Below, piece by piece: positions 44,225-47,057 of a stretch of 64,000 bases of DNA. Numbering within the stretch: the stretch's first letter is position 1; each line of letters opens with the position of its first letter. Origin of the DNA: Elainella saxicola E1 (GTDB lineage Bacteria; Cyanobacteriota; Cyanobacteriia; Elainellales; Elainellaceae); assembly GCA_002796835.1 (NCBI GenBank), contig LUGL01000013.1, forward strand, positions 1-64,000, read 5' to 3'. A program made the translations under genes and the position numbers. The notes under the pieces are model-generated. The model had not been told where the DNA came from. It did not search any database and saw only the letters and a list, made by a program, of their open reading frames with translations.

Positions 44225-44875
44225 TTATACATCGTATAATTGCCTAAACCAACTCACAAAAGTTTGTGCTTTAGGATGGGATGGGTTGAAAATTCTTTCC
44301 ATAACTGCATTATGTAATTGCCGCCCTGGCGGATCTTGCCAAGCTAACCAAGTATAGATATATGCTTTATCACAATGAGAATCTATGAAAGTAGCTCCTT
44401 TGTCTTTGGCTTTTTGAGCAGCTTCCTGAGCATGTTGCCAAAGAGATTCGCTTTCATCTGGAATTAGATACATTAGGAAGGTTTCTAACATTCCTTGGGT
44501 TTTATTATCTGGCATTATCCAAACCCCAAATTTGACACCAGCAGTAGTCAGACAAATTAGCCCTGACTCTGGTATTTCTTCAGGGAGATCAGCAATACTC
44601 TTAGAACAAGCATTCTTAATGCTAGCCCATCGTGCATTAAAATCATTGTCTGCATCTATGATCAAGCCTAATGCAGTTCGACCAGATTCTTTTAACTCAG
44701 TAGAAATAAAAGTTTCATCGACAAATTGATCGCTACCATAGGATTCTATATAAACAATGGCTGTCTCTTTAGTTTCTCCCCACGCAATTCCGTTTGCTTC
44801 TATTAATTGAGGTATAACTCTTTTATCTTGATCTCCCTCAACAATAAGCTTTTTAGGTCTATATTTACTTATCAT
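44225..44875 (-). CDS. TOPRIM-like protein (DUF3226 type)
   Basis: The 216-residue protein shows TOPRIM-like motifs: the first acidic residue in KKLIVEGDQDKRV and the DxD-type ALGLIIDADNDF. IWIMPDNKTQGMLE follows, as in DUF3226 proteins. TOPRIM domains bind divalent metal and cut or handle nucleic acids. It starts 2 bp after the upstream ATPase gene ends, so the two are one operon. Separate ATPase and TOPRIM subunits resemble split OLD-type nucleases and defence systems such as PARIS (AriA/AriB) or Gabija-like GajA. I cannot assign it to a named system. Confidence 0.75.
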   Translation of the reverse strand: MISKYRPKKLIVEGDQDKRVIPQLIEANGIAWGETKETAIVYIESYGSDQFVDETFISTELKESGRTALGLIIDADNDFNARWASIKNACSKSIADLPEEIPESGLICLTTAGVKFGVWIMPDNKTQGMLETFLMYLIPDESESLWQHAQEAAQKAKDKGATFIDSHCDKAYIYTWLAWQDPPGRQLHNAVMERIFNPSHPKAQTFVSWFRQLYDV

Positions 44876-44877
44876 TG

Positions 44878-46020
44878 CTAACGCACCTCAATACCTCTAT
44901 CGGCAGCAACGACAATCTCACGTTCACTAAAGACTATACCCACATCTTTATCTCTCTCTATTCTTTGAATAGTAATTCCATCCTCTGTAGGATCTTTCCG
45001 GCTGGCAATACTAGCCAAACTAGTCCAACAGTCACTGCTATGCGTAGTTGCAAAAACTTGTACGTTTAACCTTTTAGCAGTTTCCCATATCATTCTCCAC
45101 ATATCAGACATTGTACTGAAGTGTAAGCCTGTATCAATTTCATCCACAAACAGAACTCCATTCGCTGAACCTACAGTGGCTAATGCAAGCCCCAACATAC
45201 GCCATATCCCATCCCCCATACTGCCAATAGGAACTCGTTGATGGCTGTTAGACAGGCGCACTACAAATCCCTCACGCGCTTCCGAACGCCGGTATTTTTC
45301 AGAACCAACTGAGGCAATTCGTTCAATTTTAGGTTCAATTGTTTGAAGGGCTTCTTGTACAAGGTTCTCTTCAGGTGTTAAAACAATTTGATCAAATAGC
45401 TCAATCATTTTCTCAGATGTCAGTGCAGAGGAAGTGACAAATTGGGTTTTCGTTTCAATATTCTTAGGCACACCTATCTTTGTTAACCGACGAATATATT
45501 CGTCAGACAATCCGCCATTACTGGATAAAGGGCGATCCCAACTTTCTTGTTCACTTCCATGCATCCATCTAATAGCAAAATCGAGCACTTTAAAGTCTTC
45601 TGAGCTATCATCAAAATCCCCATTATCAAGAATCCTTAGTTGCTCAGAACTGCCGGAAGATGAATCATAACGACGCCGAATTTGGCGAATTCCTACCGTT
45701 GCTAAAAGCGCATCCTCGCCATTTTCATGAACTCCTAATACTGAAAACTCGCTACCTGGTTCAATATCATGACCATAGAAAAGATGACGAATGTCTAGCT
45801 CTCGCTCCCTTCTGCGTTCATCCCAAAAATATTCACCTCGGCTTTTCATGACATCTCTAAGAGGTTCAAGATTATTACGTGAACATAAAAGCTGAATTGC
45901 CTCTAAAACAGACGTTTTACCACTATTATTAGTGCCAACCAATAAGTTTAATCTACCGAGGTTGTTAAGCTCGAAAGACCGGAATCCACGAAAATTTTGG
46001 ATTCTTACTGTCCTTAGCAT
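44878..46020 (-). CDS. OLD-like AAA/ABC-type ATPase
   Basis: About 380 residues from ATG 46020 (MLRTVRIQNFRGFRSFELNNL). Walker A is GTNNSGKTS and the Walker B region is VLFVDEIDTGLHF. There is a signature-like GSMGDGIWRMLGLALA and the H-loop ATTHSSDC. This is the SMC/OLD-like ATPase fold of AAA_15/AAA_21 proteins. It lacks a fused TOPRIM, which is supplied by the next gene 2 bp downstream. Together they look like a two-component antiphage or plasmid-defence pair inserted between biosynthetic operons. The frame extends ten codons upstream of my start. Confidence 0.8.
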   Translation of the reverse strand: MLRTVRIQNFRGFRSFELNNLGRLNLLVGTNNSGKTSVLEAIQLLCSRNNLEPLRDVMKSRGEYFWDERRRERELDIRHLFYGHDIEPGSEFSVLGVHENGEDALLATVGIRQIRRRYDSSSGSSEQLRILDNGDFDDSSEDFKVLDFAIRWMHGSEQESWDRPLSSNGGLSDEYIRRLTKIGVPKNIETKTQFVTSSALTSEKMIELFDQIVLTPEENLVQEALQTIEPKIERIASVGSEKYRRSEAREGFVVRLSNSHQRVPIGSMGDGIWRMLGLALATVGSANGVLFVDEIDTGLHFSTMSDMWRMIWETAKRLNVQVFATTHSSDCWTSLASIASRKDPTEDGITIQRIERDKDVGIVFSEREIVVAADRGIEVR

Positions 46021-46293
46021 AGGATTAATCTCACGGATAAAATCAACCAAAGTTGTAAAAATATGGCTTTATAAAAAAACGATTCTGCATAACACTCCTA
46101 CAATGGACGTTAAACCGACTTCGATCGCCATAGCATCTCCAACAAGGGTTTAAAGCTGCGATCTACATAATATCCCCTACAGAGGAATTCGCACAAACTT
46201 GTATCTTAATACTAGTCCTTTGAAGTAGAGTTAGGCTGATGATTTCACTTATCTCTTTGCAAGATTTTTGAAACGATTAAGTGTTTTTACAAA

Positions 46294-46513: not shown

Positions 46514-46639
46514 ACAGCGTTGCCAGCAGCAAGTTCAAAGTTCGAGCGGATCGATCCACTCCATGAGAATCATCACAAAATATTGACAAATGCTTTAGTA
46601 CGCTTGTAGGTAGCCAAACTTTGGTCTATGCTAAACAAC

Positions 46640-46816
46640 ACTGGTTTTTTCGATCAACTTAGACAACCAGTAGATCTGTTCAAGGTATGGCGCTGACTAT
46701 AAGTGATTGAGCCCACTCATAGCCAGCTGTCTAACGCTCTGTTTTGCTCAGAGGCTAGCCTGCTGCGATCTTAATCGATCTTCAGCGGTTCGCAACGGCT
46801 AGACAGCCATACCTTG
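46640..46816 (-). ncRNA. candidate structured RNA with a zero-linker three-way junction
   Basis: The outer stem is CAAGGTATGGC (46681-46691) with GCCATACCTTG (46806-46816), 11 perfect pairs. Directly inside it are a 36-nt hairpin (46692-46727) and a second stem TGTCTA/TAGACA (46728-46733 with 46800-46805), with no unpaired base at the junction. The second arm contains further hairpins (CTCTG/CAGAG at 46737-46753; GCTG.GATC/GATC..CAGC at 46762-46786). On the plus strand the 36-nt hairpin has two A·C mismatches. On the minus strand these become G·U wobbles, giving a continuous 14-bp stem, so I assign the minus strand. A further hairpin ACTGGTT/AACCAGT (46640-46671) follows on that strand. I do not recognise an Rfam family. 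Confidence 0.6.
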
Positions 46817-46859
46817 GGCTTTTCTTCCCACAAACCCAACCTCAGCGAGGGAAAATAAT

Positions 46860-47057
46860 ATGTCTACAGAGTTCAACGAACTGCTGAAAGTTTCGCATAC
46901 CGATCAATCACAGATTTGGATTATTGGCACTAGAGAACAGGTGTTGCATACGATCAACGAATTTTATGTGAAACGGATTGCCACCGATCGCGTTAAATTC
47001 ACGCCGATCATTCCAGCCCCGTTTGAAGGCAAATACATGTCTGTACTGGTACGTTAA
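46860..47057 (+). CDS. small conserved cyanobacterial protein, 65 residues
   Basis: The protein reads MSTEFNELLKV, QIWIIGTREQVLHTINEFYVKRI, then ATDRVKFTPIIPAPFEGKYMSVLVR. I believe very similar 60-70-residue proteins exist in other filamentous cyanobacteria, with no assigned function. It has no membrane segment or signal peptide. GAGGGA lies about 8 nt before the ATG. It is preceded by a structured, oppositely oriented RNA element and followed by a hairpin repeat at 47078 that could end its transcript. Confidence 0.7.
   Translation: MSTEFNELLKVSHTDQSQIWIIGTREQVLHTINEFYVKRIATDRVKFTPIIPAPFEGKYMSVLVR

Follow-up and report, generated by a model that had tools for sequence, protein, structure and literature searches.

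Organization of the repeated gene unit

The window, a stretch of 64,000 nucleotides from contig LUGL01000013.1 of Elainella saxicola E1, carries at 46604-47057 on the plus strand one copy of a gene unit composed of a sigma70-type promoter, a structured leader of ~190 nt, a terminator-like stem followed by a U-tract, and a 65-aa ORF. BLAST of the surroundings places the repeated unit at ~46573-47057, running from just 5' of the promoter to the stop codon of the ORF. A preliminary description of this DNA had singled out the stretch around 46640-46816 as a highly ordered RNA; the structured RNA is real and was placed correctly, but it is part of a larger gene unit, for which it forms the 5' leader of the plus-strand ORF at 46860-47057. 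The element is a dispersed multicopy gene unit that was previously undescribed both as RNA and as protein, and no account of such a gene family was found in open-access papers, most subscription papers lying outside the scope of that search. Upstream of the element, two adjacent minus-strand ORFs (44225-46050) resemble an OLD-type ATPase and a TOPRIM-like partner. Below, the genome of the window is coded G000, other genomes G001 and so on, and individual loci L001 and so on.

The predicted sense promoter (46604-46632, plus strand) consists of a -35 box TTGTAG (46604-46609), a 17-bp spacer and a -10 box TATGCT (46627-46632), with a start predicted by consensus only at ~46639; the spacing and the -10 box are kept in the copies of G000, G006 and G019. 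The leader opens with a 5' hairpin, ACTGGTT...AACCAGT (46640-46671, plus), which is paired in the subfamily folds and which, read on the minus strand, may serve in some subfamilies as a terminator of an antisense RNA (e.g. L085, GCTGG...CCAGCTTTTTT), the minus-strand T-run being clear in only some of them. There follows the outer stem P1 (46678-46690 with 46807-46819, plus), which closes a junction holding arms 1 and 2 and is followed directly by the U-tract TTTTCTTC (46820-46827, plus), giving it the character of a terminator. P1 and TTTTCTTC lie between the putative antisense target and the ORF, the arrangement expected of a pT181/pIP501-type antisense attenuator.

Arm 1 (46692-46727, minus) is a 14-bp hairpin fully paired on the minus strand only, with hypervariable loop 1, ATTGAGCC (46706-46713), at its apex. 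Arm 2 contains the hairpin CTCTG-TTTTGCT-CAGAG (46737-46753, assigned to neither strand), whose apex is hypervariable loop 2 (46742-46748), and a further conserved hairpin (ATCTTA on the plus strand) that corresponds to a -10 box when read on the minus strand. This box belongs to a candidate antisense promoter (46768-46795, minus) with a -35 box TTGCGA (46795-46790), a 16-bp spacer and a -10 box TAAGAT (46773-46768). In the three genomes scored, a minus-strand -10-like box (TAAGAT, TAAAAT, TATCAT, TACAAT or GATAAT) usually occupies the same place; some of the f13 copies lack an obvious one, and apart from G019 (TTGTCA-17-GATAAT) and some W-type copies no convincing -35 box accompanies it. Downstream of the U-tract, the Shine-Dalgarno sequence GAGG sits within a small CCTC/GAGG hairpin (46840-46852, plus), and hairpins pairing the Shine-Dalgarno sequence were also found by eye in distant families. 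The leaders of ten genome sets have the same hairpins in common.

Fold, covariation and strand-specific wobble pairs

The structural details first noticed in the DNA were all borne out by the sequence, among them an 11-bp outer stem (46681-46691 with 46806-46816), a 36-nt arm (46692-46727) whose exactly two A·C mismatches on the plus strand become G·U pairs on the minus strand, and the TGTCTA/TAGACA base of the second arm. When both strands were folded, the stretch 46640-46830 reached -76.1 kcal/mol (z -5.75) on the minus strand and -72.2 kcal/mol (z -5.17) on the plus strand, far better than shuffled sequence in each case, with none of 200 shuffles folding as well on either strand. The judgment that chance was an unlikely source also holds, because the genome contains ~30 DNA copies of the unit, mostly at 75-92% identity. 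The RNA was said to match no known family, and Rfam covariance models indeed returned nothing at the gathering threshold for the leader and nothing at E<0.5 for the distant loci.

Base pairs of the leader covary among 46 aligned copies, with 64 cells changed on both sides of a pair vs 22 +/- 4 in shuffles, a signal above all shuffles and slides; three pairs of P1 have changes on both sides. To compare the strands, the stem strands of 68 RNAs were aligned with equal weight for G·U and A·C. In these counts, whose cells are not independent events, P1 has 120 plus-strand G·U pairs vs 17 minus-strand G·U pairs (plus-strand A·C), while arm 1 has no plus-strand G·U pairs vs 117 minus-strand G·U pairs, beside 788 Watson-Crick pairs. 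The arm 1 bias recurs in distant families (37 minus-strand vs 1 plus-strand G·U), and the outer pairs of arm 2 lean the same way (46 vs 18). Fixed alignments give a matching picture: 96.2% of P1 cells are paired on the plus strand and 84.6% on the minus strand, and 98.2% of arm 1 cells are paired on the minus strand and 82.3% on the plus strand. The A·C sites occupy different stem positions in different subfamilies.

These wobble pairs show selection on both strands, acting on P1 in the plus strand and on arm 1 in the minus strand, and their simplest reading is that a sense RNA would require P1 and an antisense RNA arms 1 and 2. Because almost every copy has the A·C/G·U asymmetry, the earlier suggestion of a minus-strand RNA is retained as probable, but it was incomplete in that a plus-strand RNA is predicted as well. 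The roles then envisaged for the fold, namely a small RNA, the leader of a minus-strand transcript or a mobile element, likewise missed a predicted plus-strand RNA with its promoter, terminator-like stem and conserved small ORF.

The 65-aa protein

The ORF (46860-47057, plus) encodes a small-protein family with a predicted beta-alpha-beta fold (AlphaFold model, pLDDT 81). With a median dN/dS of 0.051 it is under strong purifying selection; by genome, the median is 0.05-0.06 for G000 and G019 and 0.19 for G006. Searches of Pfam, NCBIfam and PADLOC with the protein and its distant homologues gave no meaningful match, PHROGs gave one weak match, to an entry of unknown function, and Foldseek against the PDB with the model gave a best E of 0.63 and no interpretable match. 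VIA-align matches to the papillomavirus E2 DNA-binding domain, MinE and PII reached a Z of at most 4.1 and were set aside as not interpretable, as were pentatricopeptide matches from the profile search, which look like repeat artefacts. Three plasmid homologues (L246, on Trichormus variabilis plasmid D; L247; L248) adjoin replication/partition, HTH or tyrosine-recombinase genes, and no such leader is apparent in the regions inspected upstream of these three. The W-type protein has no match in IMG/VR, in plasmids (PLSDB) or in phages.

Distribution and association with an integron-type integrase

A protein-level search of the genome of the window yields 63 matches to the 65-aa protein. The family occurs in 25 of 60 related genomes, some of which have 40, 22 or 14 matches and others none, and a search for relatives across cyanobacteria, as had been proposed at the outset, recovered related units by profile search in 107 of the 291 genomes sampled, with 70 matches in G200. 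Copies are usually more alike within a genome than between genomes, and the unit therefore seems to amplify within lineages. Multiple identical copies with target-site duplications had been named as the sign of a mere mobile repeat. Copies are indeed many, but they are diverged, both RNA and protein are under selection, and no target-site duplication was obvious at the boundaries inspected by eye.

In G000, G003, G006, G012 and G019, a minority of copies have an integron-type integrase gene, or remnants of one, 300-1500 bp upstream in the same orientation. In the genome of the window, an intact IntI (TIGR02249, 470 bits) is located just upstream of one copy and remnants at others; the loci concerned, with integrase genes intact or internally deleted, are C8:60228-61169 (L142, L104), C61 (L092) and C214 (L018). 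Equivalent loci, again with integrase genes intact or internally deleted and in the same orientation as the copy, are L107-L115 in G006, L182, L184 and L185 in G012, and L125, L134 and L137 in G019. The intI-bearing units have a precise left end, a conserved segment of ~94 bp that opens with an RnnYAAC triplet resembling an integron core site; the flanks beyond it are unrelated (L109, L112, L113 and L115 in G006; L127, L130, L132, L133 and L138 in G019). Together, the IntI genes or remnants and the RnnYAAC left end suggest, without proving, that an IntI-bearing unit may have dispersed some of the copies. Almost all of the distant-family loci examined are without intI nearby.

Several further features of the copies and their surroundings were observed. 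Palindromic repeats of several classes lie 3' of the ORF stop in many copies of the genome of the window (e.g. L011, L012, L013; one follows the stop codon as GGTAGGGGCGGATCGCGATCCGCCCTTAC) and are common to members of a subfamily. In most of the G019 copies L126-L138, the last Arg codon of the ORF enters a HIP1 site (GCGATCGC) and, with no stop there, the reading frame stays open into unrelated flanking sequence. On the complete chromosome of G006, the elements are mostly on the minus strand up to 2.0 Mb and mostly on the plus strand after 3.5 Mb (12/14), and GC skew sampled from this chromosome gave no replichore signal.

Hypervariable apical loops

In ten genome sets, nearly every copy has its own version of the two apical loops (~7 nt each), and the stems barely vary. 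The 40 copies compared in the genome of the window have 39 different sequences for loop 1 and 34 for loop 2, and no loop pair occurs twice; the 16 copies of G019 have 16 different loop 2 sequences, again with no pair repeated, and near-zero variation in their stems. Loops are ~40% different between copies whose remaining RNA differs by 3%. The hypervariability is repeated in the distant family of G200 and in G001, G012, G014 and G022, and the same pattern was seen by eye in copies of G020, G147 and G273. A ligand-binding RNA, by comparison, is expected to conserve its loops.

The G+C count of loop 1 is nearly constant (variance 0.36 vs 1.41 expected for 7-mers, P<0.0005; 6-mers and 8-mers behave similarly), and that of loop 2 is more weakly so (1.07 vs 1.55, P 0.03). 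Constant G+C in loop 1 is expected if pairing strength is held constant, and constant pairing strength with changing sequence would fit a recognition loop and is not the outcome expected of neutral hypermutation. Loop 1 is identical in 1 of 780 pairs within the genome of the window vs 14 of 2674 between genomes; strict orthogonality predicts lower identity within than between genomes, and these numbers are only suggestive of it. A loop can also be common to paralogues: loop 2 is identical in 7 of 780 pairs within that genome, and in G006 young duplicates have both loops in common. Across distant genomes, identical loop 1 sequences recur above chance (10 vs 2.6, P 0.001).

Loops match their own flanks no better than do the loops of other copies, and they have no complementarity to the copy's own flanks or ORF; pairing of loop 1 with loop 2 of the same or another copy was also null. 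Given these null comparisons, loops acting as guides to an insertion site or to the copy's own ORF were rejected, as was a guide of the bridge-RNA (IS110) type.

Proposed antisense control and its alternatives

We consider it fairly probable that each leader is regulated by an antisense RNA of its own, with recognition by kissing loops that have diversified against cross-regulation of paralogues. The dispersed cassette would comprise the promoter, the structured leader RNA, the terminator-like stem and the gene for the 65-aa protein. A cis-encoded antisense RNA would start inside arm 2 on the minus strand, contain arms 1 and 2 as hairpins, and recognize its own sense leader by kissing of both apical loops. 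Expression of the small-protein gene would hinge, in one direction or the other, on this loop-loop pairing; if sense and antisense RNA formed a full duplex, it would extend over the 5' strand of P1 as well and so open P1. Because the loops differ among paralogues, each antisense RNA would act mainly on its own copy, in the manner of plasmid incompatibility groups. We infer the antisense transcript, the kissing and the copy-specific control from the sequence of the copies. A cis-encoded antisense RNA is complementary to its own loops by construction, and sequence therefore cannot test the pairing. Against antisense control we count the poor consensus match of the candidate antisense promoter outside G019, a minus-strand terminator that is clear in some subfamilies only, and the loops that some paralogues, among them young duplicates of G006, have in common.

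Hypervariable loops on a constant scaffold, together with the constant G+C of loop 1, would also suit the seeds of a family of trans-acting small RNAs, made from either strand and aimed at different host or phage transcripts, with the small protein binding the conserved scaffold; the recurrence of loop 1 sequences in distant genomes could then mean shared targets. We regard this as unlikely, in that, taken alone, it leaves unaccounted for the selection of arm 1 on the minus strand and of P1 on the plus strand, as well as the protein gene that follows in the copies found, and the loops lack complementarity to the targets compared, namely their own flanks and ORF. The strand bias enters differently if the structure is an attC-like folded single-stranded site of the integron-type integrase, in which the bottom strand folds and the loops are a variable terminal structure mutating upon hairpin processing: the bottom-strand-specific pairing of arm 1, the IntI genes or remnants directly upstream of some copies and the RnnYAAC left end of the intI-bearing units all agree with such a site. 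It is nonetheless made improbable by the selection of P1 on the plus strand, by the scarcity of intI at the distant-family loci examined, by a constant loop G+C that mutation alone does not predict, and by RYYYAAC/GTTRRRY cores that are not kept, some copies having GTCTAAC or ACCTAAC and others ATCCAGG or ATCCGGA.

A type I toxin-antitoxin module would have the 65-aa protein as putative toxin, the antisense RNA as antitoxin and loops diverged to keep paralogous modules independent. A small ORF with a Shine-Dalgarno hairpin, a probable antisense RNA, many paralogues, and plasmid homologues, one neighbouring an HTH regulator and another next to partition and replication genes, are all in keeping with it. 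The protein, however, is predicted to be a soluble beta-alpha-beta domain instead of a short hydrophobic peptide, PADLOC gave no match, and 63 toxin copies under purifying selection would be unusual; we think such a module improbable.

Relation to known RNA regulators

Control by kissing loops has precedents on plasmids. Initial binding of the pT181 antisense RNA is believed to proceed by loop-loop kissing (PMC4878617), and diversified RNAI loops make ColE1 origins compatible, the loop sequence setting specificity (PMC9458437). Like the antisense attenuators in the rep leaders of pT181 and pIP501, the element has sensing hairpins in its leader and a terminator before its ORF, and an overlapping antisense RNA is probable and loop-loop recognition is proposed. 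Unlike them, it is found on chromosome-scale contigs in tens of paralogues per genome with loops diversified within one genome, and its ORF encodes not a Rep initiator but a protein lacking Pfam or NCBIfam matches, whose W-type is absent from PLSDB. With the ColE1 RNAI/RNAII copy-number control it would share specificity set by loop sequence, but it has two loops and a downstream ORF, and neither a primer RNA nor a replication origin was seen. The Downstream-peptide motif (RF01704) also precedes small unclassified cyanobacterial ORFs as a structured 5' leader (PMC2864571), and differs from the element, which has hypervariable loops and no covariance-model match. Finally, an intact IntI just upstream of one copy recalls integron IntI/attC systems, whereas the units are dispersed instead of arrayed and the structured stretch has no conserved attC core.

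Implications

More tentatively, and with somewhat less than an even chance in our estimation, the units may constitute a cyanobacteria-wide family of chromosomal incompatibility groups, in which tens of paralogues per genome would each have a private antisense RNA, the code of two 7-nt kissing loops would be selected for mutual non-interference, and spread would be due in part to an integron-integrase-bearing unit. With 40 distinct loop pairs in the 40 copies sampled, such a set would make antisense specificity directly testable. The small-protein family newly brought to light here can number tens of copies in a single cyanobacterial genome, and antisense control may be linked to an integron-type integrase. 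If the proposal is true, these cyanobacteria would hold a natural large library of RNA regulators built on one scaffold and working side by side in one cell.
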